Shown piece after piece: positions 6,715 through 56,535 of a DNA stretch of 64,000 nucleotides. The notes beneath the pieces are model-generated. The model was not told the origin of the DNA. It ran no database searches and saw nothing but the letters and a program-made list of their open reading frames with translations. The stretch lies in contig SVII01000005.1 in the NCBI GenBank assembly GCA_015069605.1, forward strand, positions 1 to 64,000. Direction: 5' to 3'. A program made the position numbers and the translations under genes. The number at the start of each line of letters is the position of its first letter. The first letter of the stretch is position 1. This stretch comes from Clostridiales bacterium (GTDB lineage Bacteria; Bacillota; Clostridia; Christensenellales; Borkfalkiaceae).

Positions 6715-7278
6715 ATGGATGAAATTCGTTCCGTAGAGGATGTCAATAGAAAGGTAAAACGCGTAATCATCACAGCGCAAGAACTCTCTGATCAAATCAA
6801 AGAAGCAGGGAAAAAGATCGACGAGTGGTACGATGGTAGACCGATTTTGCTTGTGAGCATCTTAAAGGGTTCGTTCGTATTTTTGGCGGATCTTTGCCGT
6901 GCGGTAACTGTGCCTTGTCAGATCGGTTTTATGTGCGCGAAAAGCTATTACAGCGGCACCGTGTCCACGGGCGTTGTCAAAATCACGATGGATCTTGATA
7001 TGGACATCAGCAATTACAACGTAATCATCGTGGAAGATATTATCGATACGGGCAGAACGCTCAATGACGTAGTAAAAATATTGAAAGCACGCAATCCTTT
7101 GTCCTTGCGCGTAGTAACGCTTCTAGATAAACCATCTAGACGTTTGGTGGACTTCAAGGCGGATTTAGCGCTCTTTACTATTCCCGATTATTTTGTGATC
7201 GGCTATGGGTTAGACTGCGCGGAATATTTTAGAAATCTTCCGTATATTGCGGAGTATAACTTATCGGAAAACGAATAA
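6715..7278 (+). CDS. hpt: Hypoxanthine phosphoribosyltransferase
   Basis: Purine-salvage enzyme that makes IMP or GMP from hypoxanthine or guanine and PRPP. The 187 residues contain the PRPP-binding loop VEDIIDTGRTL (about 106-116), the flexible-loop region KSYYSGTVSTG and the PPi loop around LKGSF (50-54), all typical of bacterial Hpt. AAGGAGA precedes the start. It is first of three close plus-strand genes (hpt, tdk, exonuclease) that deal with nucleotides. Confidence 0.94.
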   Translation: MDEIRSVEDVNRKVKRVIITAQELSDQIKEAGKKIDEWYDGRPILLVSILKGSFVFLADLCRAVTVPCQIGFMCAKSYYSGTVSTGVVKITMDLDMDISNYNVIIVEDIIDTGRTLNDVVKILKARNPLSLRVVTLLDKPSRRLVDFKADLALFTIPDYFVIGYGLDCAEYFRNLPYIAEYNLSENE

Positions 7279-48145: not shown

Positions 48146-49126
48146 ATGTCTAATAACGTACGTCCTGAAACGATGGCGCGTATCACGACGAAAGCGCTTG
48201 CTGATGCGTTCATCGCGGAACAGGTAGCGGCAATTCGTGCGCAAGTGGGTGACAAAAAGGTGTTGCTTGCCCTTTCTGGTGGGGTAGATTCTTCGGTTGT
48301 AGCCGCGCTTTTGATTAAGGCAATCGGCAAGCAGCTTGTTTGTGTACACGTGAATCACGGACTGCTTCGTAAAGGCGAACCTGAACAAGTGGTAGAAGTA
48401 TTCCGCAATCAAATGGACGCAAACCTCGTTTACGTGGATGCGGTGGATCGTTTCCTTGGAAAACTGGAAGGTGTAGAAGAGCCCGAAAAGAAACGTAAGA
48501 TTATCGGTGCGGAATTTATCCGTGTATTTGAAGAAGAAGCGAGAAAATTAGAAGGCATCGAATTTTTGGCGCAAGGTACGATTTATCCCGATATTATCGA
48601 AAGTGATGGGGTAAAAGCGCACCATAACGTAGGCGGCTTGCCCGAAGATATGCAGTTTGAACTCGTAGAGCCTTTAAAACTTTTGTATAAAGACGAAGTG
48701 CGCGCAGTGGGCAGCGCGCTTGGTTTACCCGACGACATGGTATATCGTCAGCCGTTCCCTGGCCCTGGTCTTGGCGTTCGTGTGCTTGGGGAAATCACGA
48801 GAGAGCGTTTGGAAGCGGTGCGTGAATCGGATGCGATTTTACGTGAGGAATTTGCGATTGCAGGGTTGGAAGGCAAGGTATGGCAATATTTCACAGCAGT
48901 GCCTAATTTCAGATCGGTAGGCGTGAAAGACGGCAAGCGTACGTATGCATATCCTGTAATTATTCGTGCTGTGAATACTGTGGACGCAATGTCCGCAACG
49001 ATTGAGGAAATTCCTTATGAAGTGTTGAAAAAAATTACGGCTCGTATTACGACGGAAGTAGAAAACGTCAACCGCGTATTGTACGATTTGACCCCGAAAC
49101 CCTCGGGAACGATTGAATGGGAATAA
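48146..49126 (+). CDS. guaA: GMP synthase, ATP-pyrophosphatase subunit only
   Basis: Aminates XMP to GMP. At 326 residues it holds the PP-ATPase domain (P-loop [16 protein letters not shown]) and the C-terminal dimerisation domain ending in KPSGTIEWE. The usual N-terminal class I glutaminase domain (about 190 residues) is absent, and the 58-base gap before it has no room for it. This matches the two-subunit (archaeal-type) GMP synthase, so a separate glutaminase should be encoded elsewhere, or free ammonia is used. AAAGGAGAG precedes the start. The 3' end is a classic integration site for mobile islands. Confidence 0.93.
49115..49126 (+). repeat. Candidate attachment-site copy at the guaA 3' end
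   Basis: GAATGGGAATAA ends guaA. The same 12 bases recur at 63811-63822 in the same orientation, beyond the accessory region. Confidence 0.45.
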
Positions 49127-49776: not shown

Positions 49777-49923
49777 ATGAGAAAATATGAAGAGATTAAA
49801 ATAAAAATTACATCCCTTTTAAATTTGGACGTTCTTACCTCTTCGACAAGCGAAAGTGAAAGTGCGGACGATTTGGGTGGATGGAATAACGATTGGTTTG
49901 TTCAATCTAAGGAGGCGTTATGA
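49777..49923 (+). CDS. 48-residue acidic peptide coupled to a secreted protein
   Basis: ATG 49777 has GGAG seven bases upstream; the track start at 49735 does not. The peptide has a basic-amphipathic N-terminus (MRKYEEIKIKITSLLNLDV), a TSSTSESES linker and an acidic, tryptophan-containing end (DDLGGWNNDWF). Its stop overlaps the next ATG by 4 bases and it holds that gene's AAGGAGG. Small peptides that begin M-[KR]-K-Y-E and change to Ser/Thr then Asp/Trp are familiar to me from gut Firmicutes as uncharacterised ORFs. It has no signal peptide. It could be a precursor peptide or an export or assembly partner. Confidence 0.6.
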   Translation: MRKYEEIKIKITSLLNLDVLTSSTSESESADDLGGWNNDWFVQSKEAL

Positions 49924-52130
49924 GAAATATAGCAAAGAAAATTTATATTTTGGCTTTAAGTTGTTTGATGCCTTTTAGTGTTTGTGTCGGTTTGCATTTA
50001 TTGAATGTAACAGCGGAGGCCAACACGGTGTATGTGTCCGCAAGTGGTAGCGATGAGAATGATGGTACAAACAGCGCGCCTTACGCGTCCTTTCAATACG
50101 CTTTGGAACAGGTACCCAACGGCGGAACGATTGTTTTGCAGGATACTGTTTCCGTTGGGGATTGGACGACGCACGGTAAGGCGGTAACGGTCACGGGTGG
50201 CAGCTTAGATGCAACGGCGTTCACATCCTTTCAGATTCGTGATCACGTTACGTTTACGGACGTTGCATTGTTGGTAAATGCAGGCGAATATATTTGTGCG
50301 AACGGCTATTCGGTGGTAATGGGAGAAGGTGTAACTTTAAGCAACGCAGTCGATATCTACGGCGGAGGTACGCCCGATACGACGGTAGCAGGTACGAATC
50401 TAACGTTGCTTTCGGGTACTTATAGATACGTGTATGGCGGTAGCCTTATGGGAACGGTAAACGGAGATACTCACCTTACCATAGGCGGGGCAGTCAATGC
50501 AGATATTGATGTTTCCAACCACAGCGGCGTAAACTTCTTTTTTGGTGGCGGATGCTCGGATACGATTACGGGCAACACCTATTTAAGCTTTGGCGGAAAT
50601 GCAAAAGCTACGCATTTGTTTGGCGGTTCGCTTGGGGCGGAGAGTACGATTGGCGGCACTGCAAATCTAACCGTAACAGGTGGAGCATCCATGAGTATGT
50701 ACGGCGCAAGCAAGGACGTTGATACGGGATGCGACGTAAAGCTCATGGTGACGGGTGGCTCGTTTGAGCAGGTATTCGGCGGCTCTTGGGGCGCATCGCT
50801 GACGGGAGACGTTGACGTGCGTGTTCTCGGCGGTACGATTAGTCGTCGTATTTACGGCGGTTGTTATAACGATATCAACGATGATAATATCTTTAATTTG
50901 AGCTTTGCTTCGCAATACTATGTAAACGGACGTGTGAACTTAACGCTTGGCAGTAAGGCAAACATTACCTATTCCTATTCCGATGGAATAGTTACGGCAG
51001 ATAAAGGCGTTTACGCGCGTTCTCGTTATAATAAAGACGTGGAGGATACCCAGCTTGTTTTTGCGGACGAAACGGCGTACAATAATTATAAAAATAGAAC
51101 GTTGAAATTGACGGCGCAAGACAGCACAATGAAAGGTCTTATGGGCAGTCTTTCCGTTGCTGACGAAACGCATTATTATACTTATTCGGTTGAAGGAAAC
51201 GTAGTAACGCAACATTGCGCATATCACGATACCCATTCAGCAACCGCGATCATCAGCATGGAGAATAGCGGATTGCAGTATACGGGGGCGGAAATTACGC
51301 CCGTATGCATCGATTACAGCAACGATTGGGAATATGATAAATTCGATGTTGCGTATAAGGACAATGTAGAGGTGGGCACGGCAAATTACACGCTTACTGC
51401 AGGTTGCTTTACGACCACGCAAACCTTTGAAATTCGCAATGCGCCCGTTGTTTTAGGTGGCAGCGTTCGCCTTTCCACCCCTGCTGGGCTTCGTTTCCAG
51501 TCGAAAGTAGATGATGCATTTGTAGAAGATGGCGCAAGCTTTGGTACGCTGATTATGCCTAAAGACGTGCTTGGCGACGAGGTTTTGACGATTGAGTCAC
51601 AATCGGTGCTCAACATTCCGCAAACGAAATGGGCGACGGATAGTGTAAAAGAAAAAAATCCGCAGGATTACGAAGAAGGCTTTGCTTATTTTAACGCGGT
51701 TTTGACGGAAATTCCTGCGGAGCATTACGATAAAGTAATCGTTGCGCGCAGCTACGCGTATTTGAATGGGGCGTATTATTATTCCGAGCCGATAGAGCGT
51801 TCCATTGCGCAGGTTGCGGCATATGCACTTCAAGACGGCTATACAGATAGCGTTTTATACTCCTATGTAGATGAGGCGTTGGCAGATGAAACGCTTGCGA
51901 TGGAAAGTGTAATTGAGCTCAAGGAAGGGCGTTTCTATCAATTAAATCTTACGGGGACAAAAGGTTATGTTGCCGTTTGGAAATCGTCGGATGAAAGGAT
52001 TGTGGTTGTGGATAGTAATGGTAAGGTACAGGCGCGCCGTGCAGGAACAGCCACGATTACAGTGAGGATTGGTAATAAGTACGCGGAATGTATCGTTACC
52101 GTTAAGGAGAATTGGTCGGGATCGTATTAA
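49920..52130 (+). CDS. Secreted beta-helix-like surface protein with a C-terminal BIG2-like domain
   Basis: A 736-residue protein with an N-terminal signal peptide (KKIYILALSCLMPFSVCVGL..AEA). Residues 35-330 hold right-handed beta-helix-type repeats with recurring VTGGSFEQVFGGSWG-like units (GG-x-YGGS), as in pectin-lyase-fold or polymorphic surface proteins. A middle domain (about 480-640) with LRFQSKVDD and ARSYAYLNGAYYYSEPI resembles domains often found in gut Firmicute surface proteins. The C-terminus (VAVWKSSDERIVVVDSNGKVQARRAGTATITV) is a BIG2 Ig-like domain. No LPXTG or S-layer anchor is visible, so attachment is unclear. It is translated in step with the preceding peptide. Confidence 0.75.
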   Translation: MRNIAKKIYILALSCLMPFSVCVGLHLLNVTAEANTVYVSASGSDENDGTNSAPYASFQYALEQVPNGGTIVLQDTVSVGDWTTHGKAVTVTGGSLDATAFTSFQIRDHVTFTDVALLVNAGEYICANGYSVVMGEGVTLSNAVDIYGGGTPDTTVAGTNLTLLSGTYRYVYGGSLMGTVNGDTHLTIGGAVNADIDVSNHSGVNFFFGGGCSDTITGNTYLSFGGNAKATHLFGGSLGAESTIGGTANLTVTGGASMSMYGASKDVDTGCDVKLMVTGGSFEQVFGGSWGASLTGDVDVRVLGGTISRRIYGGCYNDINDDNIFNLSFASQYYVNGRVNLTLGSKANITYSYSDGIVTADKGVYARSRYNKDVEDTQLVFADETAYNNYKNRTLKLTAQDSTMKGLMGSLSVADETHYYTYSVEGNVVTQHCAYHDTHSATAIISMENSGLQYTGAEITPVCIDYSNDWEYDKFDVAYKDNVEVGTANYTLTAGCFTTTQTFEIRNAPVVLGGSVRLSTPAGLRFQSKVDDAFVEDGASFGTLIMPKDVLGDEVLTIESQSVLNIPQTKWATDSVKEKNPQDYEEGFAYFNAVLTEIPAEHYDKVIVARSYAYLNGAYYYSEPIERSIAQVAAYALQDGYTDSVLYSYVDEALADETLAMESVIELKEGRFYQLNLTGTKGYVAVWKSSDERIVVVDSNGKVQARRAGTATITVRIGNKYAECIVTVKENWSGSY

Positions 52131-52178: not shown

Positions 52179-54449
52179 GTGGAAGATACTTTTTTCAAAA
52201 AAGCCGTGCCGGTTTGGCAAAAGGGAAAGGAAAATCAATTACACGCAAGATGTGTATTTTTTGCAACGTTTGAAGGCGCATCTGATGCAACTTTGACGAT
52301 TGCTGCTAGCAACATATACAGAGTTTTTGTAAACGGAAAAATGGTAGGGGTAGGGCCTGCGCGTTCTGCACACGGTCGTTTTCGTGTGGACGAGTTAGCC
52401 TTGAAAAACTTACAAGAGAAAAACGTGGTTTTCATTGAAGCAGTTGCGTATAACAGCTATAATTATTGCCATTTGTATCAATCGGGCTTCGTTTGCGCAG
52501 AAGTGACGCGAGAGAATACGCCTATCGTGTGGACGGGGAGGGATTTTATCGTTCGCGAATATGTAGAAAAGAAGCAAAAGGTATGCAAATACAGCTATCA
52601 GCGTCCGTTCACGGAAATCTATGATTTTGAACGCCCTCCGCAAGAAACATATCTTGATTTTTCACCGAACGGAGCGGAAGTGGAAAAGGAATATCCCGTA
52701 CAGGTTGAAGACAAACTGTTTGAAGCGCGTAATGTTTCCTATCCGACCTATGAGTTTTTTCTTGCAAAGGAAATGGAAGCTGGTGAGTATTTCGTCGAAA
52801 AGGACTTACCTGAAACGAATCCTTGGATTTTGAAGGAGAGATTGCGTATTTTCCCCAAGCATGAATGGGAGAGCGATAATTATGCGTTTTTACAACGCTT
52901 GACATATCAAAGGAAGGAATTAAACAACGAGATTAAGGAGAATGAATACGTTCTATACAATTTTGATTTCGTACTTACGGGTTTTTTGCGCCTAGAGTGT
53001 ACGGCGCTGGAAGATAGCATAGTGTTGGTATCCTTTGACGAAATCAACCTGAACACGGATGAGAATGGTATTGCGAATATTAGAAGTGACCGTATGGGCT
53101 CGGTCAACGTGATTGAATATCGCTTGAAGGCGGGGCAAAGGTACGCGCATACGACGCTCGAACCGTATACAGCAAAATACATCAAGGTGCACGTAAAAAG
53201 CGGTAAAATCGAAAACGTATCCGTAGGGATGCATACTTATGAAAATCCCAATGCGGAAAGCTTTTGCTTTAAAACTGAAAATGAAAAGCTAAATGCAATT
53301 GTTGAAGCGGCGCGTAGAACTTTCAAACAAAACGCGTTGGATATTCTTACCGACTGCCCTTCAAGAGAGCGCGCTGGCTGGCTTTGTGATTCCTATTTCT
53401 TGGGAAAAGCTGAACAGCTGTTTACAGGGAATAACAAGGTGGAGTGTAATTTCTTAAACAATTACATTCACGCGAAAACGCAAAGTATTCCCGAAGGTAT
53501 GGTTCCCATGTGTTACCCTGCGGATTTTACGGACGGCTCGTATATCCCGAATTGGGCGTTGTTCTATATTATCGAGCAATACGATTATTATATTCGCTGC
53601 AACGACGACGCCATTTTGCAGGAGTCTAAAAACAAGGTACTGGGGATTGTTCAATTTTTCGATAGATACTTAAACGAGCAAGGACTTTTGGAGAATTTGG
53701 AAAATTGGGTGTTCGTCGAATGGAGCAAAGCGAATGATCCCGAATTTACGGCAGGCATCAACTATCCCTCGAATATGCTGTATGCGATGGCGCTCGAGTG
53801 TACGGCGAAAATGTATGGCATTGACGAGTATCAAAAAAGAGCGGATGCAATCAAACAAACGATTCGCAAGGACAGCTTTAACGGAGAATTCTTTGAAGAT
53901 AACCGCATTCGCGAAAACGGCGAATTGGTATTGAAGGGGCATTGTTCGGAAACTTGTCAATATTATGCTTTCTTCACGGGCGTAGCAACCAAGGAAAGCT
54001 ATCCCGAGCTTTACAAAAACCTATTGAAAAACTTTGGGGCAAAACGAAACCAAGAAAAAGTGTATCCGCAAGTGCATAAATCGAATGCGTTTATTGGTAA
54101 CTACTTGCGTTTGATTATGCTGAACGAGAACGGAAGTAAATACAAAATTGCCGAAGAATGTGTGGATTATTTCTATTACATGGCTAAGGCAACGGGAACA
54201 TTGTGGGAAAAGGATGATGTGTATGCAAGTTTGAACCACGGCTTTGCGTCCTACGTTGCGAATTTACTTGTGGATTATTTAACGGGGTATAGAGGCAGAC
54301 ACGGGAAGAAGTTGTTGTTTTCAAAACCTGCAGTCGATATGAATTGTACATTGCGTTTGCCTTTGGAAAACGGATTTTTGTATTTTGAGCGAAAAGACGG
54401 AAAGACGGTGTGCACATATCCTAAAGAATATACAGTGGAAGAATTGTAA
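52179..54449 (+). CDS. GH78-family alpha-L-rhamnosidase
   Basis: A 756-residue cytoplasmic enzyme (no signal peptide). N-terminal beta-sandwich domains (AASNIYRVFVNGKMVGVGPAR) lead to a catalytic alpha/alpha-barrel with DCPSRERAGWLCDS, the GH78 catalytic hallmark (DCPxRxExxGW). Later ENWVFVEWSKAND and YASLNHGFASYVANLL continue the family pattern. Start is GTG at 52179 with GAGG upstream. It would remove rhamnose from imported oligosaccharides. It precedes the GH35 gene by 22 bases, so the two form one unit. Confidence 0.85.
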   Translation: MEDTFFKKAVPVWQKGKENQLHARCVFFATFEGASDATLTIAASNIYRVFVNGKMVGVGPARSAHGRFRVDELALKNLQEKNVVFIEAVAYNSYNYCHLYQSGFVCAEVTRENTPIVWTGRDFIVREYVEKKQKVCKYSYQRPFTEIYDFERPPQETYLDFSPNGAEVEKEYPVQVEDKLFEARNVSYPTYEFFLAKEMEAGEYFVEKDLPETNPWILKERLRIFPKHEWESDNYAFLQRLTYQRKELNNEIKENEYVLYNFDFVLTGFLRLECTALEDSIVLVSFDEINLNTDENGIANIRSDRMGSVNVIEYRLKAGQRYAHTTLEPYTAKYIKVHVKSGKIENVSVGMHTYENPNAESFCFKTENEKLNAIVEAARRTFKQNALDILTDCPSRERAGWLCDSYFLGKAEQLFTGNNKVECNFLNNYIHAKTQSIPEGMVPMCYPADFTDGSYIPNWALFYIIEQYDYYIRCNDDAILQESKNKVLGIVQFFDRYLNEQGLLENLENWVFVEWSKANDPEFTAGINYPSNMLYAMALECTAKMYGIDEYQKRADAIKQTIRKDSFNGEFFEDNRIRENGELVLKGHCSETCQYYAFFTGVATKESYPELYKNLLKNFGAKRNQEKVYPQVHKSNAFIGNYLRLIMLNENGSKYKIAEECVDYFYYMAKATGTLWEKDDVYASLNHGFASYVANLLVDYLTGYRGRHGKKLLFSKPAVDMNCTLRLPLENGFLYFERKDGKTVCTYPKEYTVEEL

Positions 54450-54471
54450 GTATTAAAAAGGGAGAATGGTT

Positions 54472-56535
54472 ATGATAACCTATAACGATTTATATTATGT
54501 AAAAGATGGCAAACCTTGGTTTCCAATTTCTGGGGAATACCAGTATTCGCGTGCGGATGTGAGATATTGGAAAGAAGGCATCGCAAAAATGAAAGCGCAA
54601 GGGATTGACGTAGTGGCAAGCTACGCATTTTGGTTGCACCATGAAGAAATTAAGGGGCATTTTGATTTCCGCGGGAATCGAAATTTAAGAAAATTTTTAC
54701 GCGAAATTAAAGAAGCGGGGATGTTAATGTGCTTGCGAATCGGCCCTTGGGTACACGCAGAAGCAAGAAACGGCGGCTTCCCCGATTGGATTTACGAAGA
54801 AAATTGTAAGACGAGATCAAACGATCCCGTTTATATGTCCTACGTGGAAAGATACTTCAAGGAACTGTATAAACAATGCGACGGGTATATGTATTCGCAG
54901 GGCGGTCCTATTTACGCTATTCAGGTAGAAAATGAATACAGTCAGTGGGGCGTACAAGGGGAAGATATTAGCGATAATCACATCAACGCACTTATCAAGA
55001 TGCTGAAAGAGATTGGATTTGACGTACCCGTGTATTGCGCTACGGGCTGGGGGAAGGCAGCCATTGGGGATGCGATTGCCGTTTGGGGCGCATACGTGGA
55101 ACAGCCTTGGGACAGAACGATTGGGGAATTGCCCCCTTTGCAACCATTCTTGTTCTCCCCGAATCCAAACGATGAAAATATCGGCAGCGAAGCAGGGAAA
55201 ATTGCTATGGATGCCGATATAGGCAAGATGAGATTCCCGTATTCTACGGTAGAAATTAGCGGCGGTGGACAAGTAACCGATCATAGAAGACCGATCCTTG
55301 GCGGAACGGAGCATGGCGCTGTTACGATGTGCCGTTTGGGCAGTGAAGCGTCTACCATAGGTTATTATGTATTCCACGGTGGTATGAACCCCATCGGCGC
55401 GTTGACCACGATGCAGGAATATTATAGAGAAGGACCGCTTGTGCCTGGATTTTGTAGCGACTTGTTGGAAATCAACTACGATTTCCAAGCCCCGATCAGT
55501 CAGTATTCCAAGGTTCGTGAAAAGGCGGGGGAATTCAAATTGTGCAACTACTTTGCCCGTGAATTTGGCGTAGAGCAAATGCGCGTTAAATTTTTTGAGG
55601 ATAGCCCAAGTGATCCTACCGACCTTGTAAGCTTGCGTTATTCAATGCGTTCAAAGGGCAATCAAGGATTCTTGTTTATCAATAACTACGTTCGCCATTA
55701 TGACTTGCCTTGCAGGGATTATAAAGATTTCAAGGTTGCGTTAGAGAGCGAAACGATTACAATTCCTTCCATCCATTTGGAGAATAAAGAATATTGCGCG
55801 TATCCCTTGAATATGCCTATCGGGAACGCGGTGTTGAAATACGCAACGGCTACGCCTTTCTGCACGTTGAACGGAAAGGACTACGTGTTTTGGTCGAAAG
55901 ACGGGAAGGCGGATTATCAAATCGAAGGCGCATTTGACGGCAAAATTATCCTTTTGAAAAAGGAAGAAGCGTTAAAGGCATACAAATTTAACTATCAAGG
56001 CAAAGAGCGTATCTTTATTGCGGACGGCGAGCTGTATCAAACGGAAGACGGCTTGCACCTCAACACGTTTGAAAAGCCGATGATGAAAATATATCCTGCT
56101 TTGGAAGAAGAGGTTGCTGGTCTGGAGAAGATAGGCGAAGAGGGGGATTTAGGTATCTATACCGCTCCCTTCCAAGCAGAGGAATGGGCAGCAGAGGTAG
56201 TTGGCGTCAAAGATTGCGGTAAATACGTAGATTATGAAATAGCCGTCAAATACAGTGTAGGCAAAAAGGAAAACGGTTTCCTGTATATTGACTTCGATGG
56301 TGATACTTTGGAATTGTTGATTGACGGCGAAAAGGTAAACGATCATTATTATTTGGGCGTGGATTTTGAAGTAGGGCTTCGTTATTACGATTTCCCGAAA
56401 ATGGTTTGCGCAAGAATTTATCCTTTGGATGAGAATAAAACGGTGTATCTGCAAAAAATCCCCGTATTCAAGGACGGAAAAGCCGTTGGTATCAACAAGG
56501 TTTATGCGAAAAAAGAAACCCGTTATCTTTTCTAA
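54472..56535 (+). CDS. GH35-like beta-galactosidase
   Basis: A 687-residue cytoplasmic protein. The N-terminal TIM barrel has GEYQYSRADVRYWKEGIAKMKAQGID, RIGPWVHAEARNGGFPDW and IQVENEYSQWG, where the NEY glutamate is the family acid/base. A likely nucleophile region is VEISGGGQVTD. C-terminal beta domains follow. GH35 enzymes remove terminal beta-galactose, for example from galactan side chains of pectin. Start: ATG 54472 has GGGAG at proper spacing; the ATG at 54466 is too close to it. Its end overlaps an inverted repeat. Confidence 0.85.
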   Translation: MITYNDLYYVKDGKPWFPISGEYQYSRADVRYWKEGIAKMKAQGIDVVASYAFWLHHEEIKGHFDFRGNRNLRKFLREIKEAGMLMCLRIGPWVHAEARNGGFPDWIYEENCKTRSNDPVYMSYVERYFKELYKQCDGYMYSQGGPIYAIQVENEYSQWGVQGEDISDNHINALIKMLKEIGFDVPVYCATGWGKAAIGDAIAVWGAYVEQPWDRTIGELPPLQPFLFSPNPNDENIGSEAGKIAMDADIGKMRFPYSTVEISGGGQVTDHRRPILGGTEHGAVTMCRLGSEASTIGYYVFHGGMNPIGALTTMQEYYREGPLVPGFCSDLLEINYDFQAPISQYSKVREKAGEFKLCNYFAREFGVEQMRVKFFEDSPSDPTDLVSLRYSMRSKGNQGFLFINNYVRHYDLPCRDYKDFKVALESETITIPSIHLENKEYCAYPLNMPIGNAVLKYATATPFCTLNGKDYVFWSKDGKADYQIEGAFDGKIILLKKEEALKAYKFNYQGKERIFIADGELYQTEDGLHLNTFEKPMMKIYPALEEEVAGLEKIGEEGDLGIYTAPFQAEEWAAEVVGVKDCGKYVDYEIAVKYSVGKKENGFLYIDFDGDTLELLIDGEKVNDHYYLGVDFEVGLRYYDFPKMVCARIYPLDENKTVYLQKIPVFKDGKAVGINKVYAKKETRYLF

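Follow-up and report, generated by a model that had tools for sequence, protein, structure and literature searches.

The closest described counterparts of the locus studied here are the linear polyphosphorylated peptides (LPPs), a class of RiPPs reported by Popov et al. (Nat Commun, May 2026; PMC13381572) with the lppAKBSDN cluster of Paenibacillus alginolyticus as reference. LPP precursors carry the motif YxxPxVLxHQxIxFETxxS with a Tyr-Ser spacing of 18, and the kinase LppK adds several phosphates to core Ser3 of LppA (PMC13381572). Residues N33 and D70 matter in the RRE protein LppB, a P-13A change in the leader weakens LppB binding, the SpI-like protease LppS has the residues S29, H68 and D93, and LppD and LppN are an exporter and an NTP transferase, respectively; LPP clusters contain no cyclase (PMC13381572). 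The genes are gained and lost in a patchy way, as conflict genes typically are, and the paper assigns LPPs no role (PMC13381572). The words secreted, surface, orphan and Clostridia are absent from its main text, and our literature search on LPPs returned no other paper.

We analysed a 64,000-nt stretch of a Clostridiales genome (contig SVII01000005.1), hereafter the window. The first-pass annotation had described a 48-residue peptide encoded at 49777-49923 that overlaps the start of a 736-residue secreted "repeat" protein by 4 bases, and the sequence bore out this layout: the peptide gene, P0001, whose product on the + strand is MRKYEEIKIKITSLLNLDVLTSSTSESESADDLGGWNNDWFVQSKEAL, shares the bases ATGA with the downstream gene, P0002. 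The features of the locus are as follows.

49777-49923, + strand: P0001, putative LppA-type precursor gene, 48 aa (translation and family searches)
49777-49836, + strand: predicted leader, aa 1-20, MRKYEEIKIKITSLLNLDVL (spacing counts and the LppA leader, PMC13381572)
49786-49788, + strand: Tyr4, putative RRE anchor within the P0001 leader
49837-49920, + strand: predicted core, an acidic Trp tail, aa 21-48, TSSTSESESADDLGGWNNDWFVQSKEAL (family comparison, spacing counts, PMC13381572)
49843-49845, + strand: Ser23, the invariant Ser of the family, equivalent to the phosphorylated Ser3 of LppA (PMC13381572)
49910-49915, + strand: ribosome-binding site (AGGAGG) serving P0002, within the last codons of P0001
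49920-52130, + strand: P0002, secreted partner, 736 aa (translation; orthologues compared)
49920-50021, + strand: signal peptide of P0002, aa 1-34, called by eye, ending ...VTAEA/NT with the cut after AEA
50025-50855, + strand: beta-helix domain of P0002, aa 36-312 (AlphaFold2, pLDDT mostly 70-95 there)
51438-51974, + strand: GASVR domain of P0002 (iterative HMM, alignment A2, AlphaFold2 pLDDT 78, pTM 0.69)
51975-52106, + strand: Big_2-type Ig-like domain of P0002 (Pfam)
52113-52127, + strand: C-terminal WSGSY of P0002, where the orthologues have WTGYY and WTDNF
52179-56535, + strand: genes for a GH78-type alpha-L-rhamnosidase and a GH35 enzyme, 3′ of P0002 (Pfam)

Searches with P0001 against Pfam, NCBIfam and PDB sequences gave no useful match, and its motif strings retrieved a single literature match, a lantibiotic leader hit by chance. 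The head, loosely called basic-amphipathic in the first-pass annotation, is better described as an RRE-leader-like stretch with the pattern Y..[P/hydrophobic]..I.I, in which Ile7 occupies the position held by Pro in many relatives and Tyr4 precedes Ser23 by 19 positions. The cleavage point is a predicted one, its position set by homology to LppA only. Directly 5′ of the peptide unit lies a GMP synthase ORF (48146-49126, 326 aa) that seemingly comprises the ATP-pyrophosphatase part without the glutamine amidotransferase part.

Orthologues of P0002 at two other loci (L100 and L101) were 52-57% identical to it. The description as a repeat protein was right in part, holding for the modelled beta-helix at aa 36-312; past this domain the full-length AlphaFold2 model was poor. 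The GASVR domain (~170 aa), which we named after its motif G-A-S-V-R...G-I-R-F, had no match in Pfam or the PDB by sequence, and Foldseek searches with its model returned only weak CBM21, GNBP3 and FnIII beta-sandwich matches, with TM mostly <0.4 on the query, so that no fold was assigned. Tiny lipoproteins near the kinase gene of related genomes end GWTDNY, GWTGNY and TWSDFY (L140/L120 in G095, L123/L143 in G049 and L118/L152 in G187), and a W-[ST]-x-x-[YF] C-terminal end is common to these lipoproteins, P0002 and its orthologues. Read from its gene content, the window locus is a glycan-degradation locus.

A single-sequence search of 301 genomes from the same bacterial family as the window recovered divergent relatives of P0001, and a profile built from 22 sequences detected homologues in 118 of these genomes, with up to 16 copies per genome and three in the window's own. 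The 103 distinct sequences gathered form a large and divergent family, largely confined to the window's bacterial family; outside it, the profile matched a distant Bacillota genome (G684) and a genome from another bacterial family (G571). Among the 25 closest peptide pairs, dN was below dS in all 18 with finite dS, and this, together with the spread of homologues, marks P0001 as more than a chance ORF. In an alignment of 57 sequences (A4) a Ser was the sole invariant column and a Tyr was nearly invariant; in 95 of the 101 peptides compared for spacing, the Tyr and the Ser stand 18 or 19 positions apart. Pro occupied Y+3 in 44 of the 101, and most others had a hydrophobic residue there; like the window peptide, 57 lacked the leader Pro. 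The tails examined were rich in Asp, Gly, Asn, Glu and Trp.

We sampled 40 loci picked by peptide matches and containing 41 peptides, calling genes with a simple ORF caller and applying a hydropathy rule plus visual inspection, rather than SignalP, to signal peptides. By a first count, ~60% of the peptides seemed to lie 5′ of a signal-peptide gene; most others lay directly 3′ of one. An iterative HMM search seeded with P0002 placed 35/41 peptides beside a GASVR gene, and five of the remaining six adjoin a gene for a second domain, which we named NYY and which also adjoins the peptide in the other bacterial family (G571); a narrower GASVR profile gave six related loci. In the reverse sample of 40 GASVR genes found regardless of peptides, 36 had an adjacent peptide, 35 of them picked up by the profile and that of L166 on visual inspection. 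Directly 5′ of two further GASVR genes (L153 and L170) lies a gene for a small lipoprotein whose C-terminal tail resembles that of the peptides, SDLTQDDAFG in L153, where the neighbouring peptide has NDLTQDDPFG, and DDPYGEDIYG in L170. One GASVR gene lacking an adjacent peptide sits at a contig edge (L163), and another (L174, G005 contig C1) has neither a peptide nor a tail lipoprotein beside it. No GASVR gene was present in six of seven genomes without the peptide system; the exception, G013, is the source of L170, and neither peptide nor RRE was found above cut-off in it. Genomes carried up to 19 GASVR genes and up to 16 peptides, each pair distinct, and the secreted partners, some 400-2900 aa long, were often encoded in glycan operons.

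These counts gave a strongly positive answer to the first-pass question whether homologues lie repeatedly beside signal-peptide proteins. The secreted gene came first in 21/69 pairs, so the peptide need not be upstream, and fixed stoichiometry by translational coupling is not the common principle. What is new in this analysis is that the precursors are dispersed and that each has one secreted partner, a GASVR or an NYY protein. In the window's own genome (G000), one further precursor (contig C26, 90054-90167; L110/L115) lies 5′ of a gene for a GASVR-domain protein, and another (contig C31, ~6913-7041; L060) is flanked on one side by an NYY protein and on the other by lipoproteins with the C-terminal ends ELPEDKFE and ELPEDIFD. 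At L062 (G142) two opposite-facing units, one of the GASVR type and one of the NYY type, each have their own peptide.

Elsewhere in the genome, the partners of the peptide were RiPP-maturation genes. The leader-plus-core layout suggested by the first-pass annotation is supported. An HprK-like kinase was found in 107 of the 301 genomes; kinase and peptide occurred together in 94, the peptide alone in 24, the kinase alone in 13 and neither in 170 (Fisher p=3e-40, without phylogenetic correction). PF05402 (PqqD/RRE) was detected in 12/14 peptide-positive genomes and above cut-off in 1/10 peptide-negative ones. In the window's family these genes form one conserved locus encoding the kinase, the RRE protein, an S26 protease and an ABC exporter, which adjoins purB in the window's genus. 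In G684, genes for the secreted protein, peptide, HprK-like kinase, PqqD/RRE protein, S26 protease, ABC exporter and NTP_transf_5 lie on one strand, machinery, precursor and secreted protein forming one operon; its secreted protein matched GASVR with E 2.9e-4 (hhalign E 7e-5, probability 63%). The peptide and kinase genes are adjacent in G571, and their matches lie ~100-130 nt apart in two genomes of the window's family (G014 and G031). At the window locus and for most precursors the peptide gene lies outside the machinery cluster, unlike in G684 and G571, and for this reason we call the system an LPP variant rather than a plain member of the class. Neither kinase nor RRE was found in the window's own MAG, which is 84% complete; this is probably an assembly gap, since purB, their neighbour in relatives, is also missing.

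The RRE protein and the protease carry the signature residues of their LPP counterparts. The kinase alignment (A5) has an invariant GKST P-loop and weak ScmC/HprK-related matches. The RRE alignment (A6; sequences from relatives) conserves N35 in 10/10, D72 in 9/10 and F76 in 10/10 sequences, corresponding to LppB N33, D70 and F74, and its profile matched the LppB crystal structure 9x8z at 3e-5. S29, H67 and D82 of the signal-peptidase-like protease were invariant in 9/9 sequences (sigpep_I_arch match below cut-off), and the best NCBIfam model for the exporter was MsbA_lipidA (E 5e-77, below the equivalog cut-off). NTP_transf_5 was present in the G187 and G684 loci and not seen at several other loci read. 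A Cys-based RiPP was rejected, as none of 93 tails examined contains Cys. Radical-SAM cyclophanes, hinted at by W-x-N/D tails, were likewise rejected, given a single SPASM protein per genome and none at the machinery locus. That protein (~460 aa; single in each family genome tested, for example G000 contig C11 136184-136363) did not turn up at the peptide loci either, and may be the SCIFF maturase often found in Clostridia.

Since one RRE serves every leader, cores that act with their partners should co-vary with the GASVR domains more strongly than the leaders do. Over 69 pairs, Mantel tests of similarity gave r=0.30 (p=0.0005) for GASVR and tail, 0.12 for GASVR and leader and 0.05 for leader and tail. 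The corresponding GASVR-tail and GASVR-leader values were 0.40 and 0.21 within genomes, and 0.158 and 0.048 for distant pairs only. Joint duplication of the operon, plus a leader held by one shared RRE, could explain part of this pattern, and the peptide tail seems to have co-evolved with its secreted partner. At several NYY loci lipoproteins end ELP[EDFW].. and peptides end ELPFVPFF, ELPIVPI or ELPFVSF; such class-specific tails agree with the tail-domain co-variation. Shared 4-mers showed no more than a modest resemblance between lipoprotein and peptide tails (p=0.004), the lipoproteins having been picked by a crude filter.

Our main reading, to which we give a probability of roughly 0.7, is that P0001 encodes an LPP-type precursor matured in trans by one machinery and that its exported core acts with the GASVR partner. 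It draws on results computed here: the peptide family and its pairing, the machinery's co-occurrence and operon linkage, the residues typical of LPPs, and the co-variation of tail and domain. One machinery would serve, in trans, the many precursors scattered through the genome: the LppB-like RRE protein would hold the leader via its Tyr motif, the LppK-like HprK-like kinase would phosphorylate the invariant Ser (Ser23 in P0001), the LppS-like signal-peptidase-like protease would cut the leader off just before this Ser, and the LppD-like MsbA-type ABC transporter would export the acidic, Trp-rich core. We infer phosphorylation, cleavage and export from the published LPP system; by analogy with it, P0001 probably encodes a precursor whose peptide a single genome-wide machinery phosphorylates, trims and exports. 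Outside the cell, the core would act with its operon partner, the secreted GASVR protein, most simply by binding the GASVR domain; we infer that this binding serves the use or display of glycan-active proteins, with the exported core possibly a ligand or anchor for the partner. More tentatively, and as an extension we would not yet favour, each exported phosphopeptide might dock as the specific ligand of its partner's GASVR or NYY domain, matched extracellular tags from one RiPP machinery thereby fixing or organising many glycan-active secreted proteins without sortase or scaffoldin. Against the mechanism stand the window MAG without kinase and RRE, the leader Ile in place of Pro, the NTP transferase present at some loci only, and the partnerless L174.

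The same machinery would also suit an antibacterial or signalling RiPP, which the GASVR protein would serve as a carrier, a receptor or an immunity factor and not as a partner in glycan-related functions, and the patchy gain and loss of LPP genes, typical of conflict genes (PMC13381572), fits such a role. We consider it unlikely: a single genome can carry as many as 16 peptides and 19 GASVR genes, each pair is distinct, and the pairs are often placed in glycan operons with secreted partners of some 400-2900 aa. One-to-one pairing with signal-peptide proteins could also mean that the peptide works in the cytoplasm as a chaperone or secretion pilot of the Sec-exported protein next to it, a role that the first-pass annotation had also considered. 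A chaperone would need no kinase, protease or exporter, however, the leader resembles an RRE substrate, and two loci have, where the peptide would be, a lipoprotein whose tail is similar, which places the tail outside the cell. With RiPP-maturation genes as the partners found genome-wide, the chaperone role gained no support, and we regard it as very improbable.

Two other explanations appear still more remote. The ATGA overlap and the internal Shine-Dalgarno site are what would be expected of an ORF that serves as a translational-coupling leader for the next gene's expression, the peptide itself having no role; this is already contradicted by the reversed order, with the peptide gene 3′ of its partner in the 21 pairs noted above, and is opposed by protein-level conservation (dN < dS) and by the co-occurrence of the peptide with RiPP genes at other sites of the genome. 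A lasso peptide, suggested by the resemblance to YxxP lasso leaders and by an RRE that matches lasso PqqD models (below cut-offs) and the TbiB1 structure, is equally hard to credit: no B2 protease was found above cut-off in 13 genomes, and an Asn-synthase (cyclase) search gave no strong match in 8/11 family genomes and asparagine-synthetase-sized matches only in the other three.

The maturation of LPP-type precursors in trans, with cores acting alongside GASVR partners, would give the first lead on what the LPP class does, in the form of a testable role. That role rests on the matching of precursors with secreted partners, on core and partner domain varying together, and on the lipoproteins that replace the peptide. 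Such maturation in trans would also mean that ordinary gut bacteria use a single RiPP machinery for many precursors scattered through the genome. The first-pass annotation called the locus a candidate for an undescribed system; the maturation class itself is published (PMC13381572), and what is absent from the main text of that paper is the one-to-one pairing of dispersed precursors with secreted proteins.

With the LPP systems the present one shares a Tyr-motif leader, an invariant Ser at matching spacing, an HprK-like kinase, a discrete RRE with N33/D70/F74 equivalents, an SpI-like protease with Ser/His/Asp, an MsbA-like exporter, the lack of a cyclase and, in some loci, an NTP transferase. 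It differs in that one machinery serves up to 16 dispersed precursors, the YxxP Pro is often replaced, the cores are short, acidic and Trp/Phe-containing, and each precursor has a secreted GASVR or NYY partner, with tail-bearing lipoproteins in addition; LPPs are found at capsule loci, whereas the window holds a glycan-degradation locus. Paeninodin-type lasso systems (B1, K, N, D) have a related RRE, an HprK-like kinase, NTP_transf_5, an ABC exporter and a similar [Y/W]xxP leader, in which Tyr rather than Trp is used here; in contrast to them, our loci have no B2 and no cyclase C, an S26/SpI-like protease instead, and Asn where paeninodin RREs have Gly. The SynChlorMet cassette contributes ScmC, the nearest NCBIfam model to the kinase (below cut-off), and a PqqD-like protein (cf. 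ScmD) is also present here, but no radical SAM maturases lie at the machinery locus. Cohesin-dockerin systems join a short module to a beta-rich domain in matched pairs across many secreted proteins. The likeness would be one of working principle only, with no sequence relation, and here the short module is a separate, putatively exported peptide.
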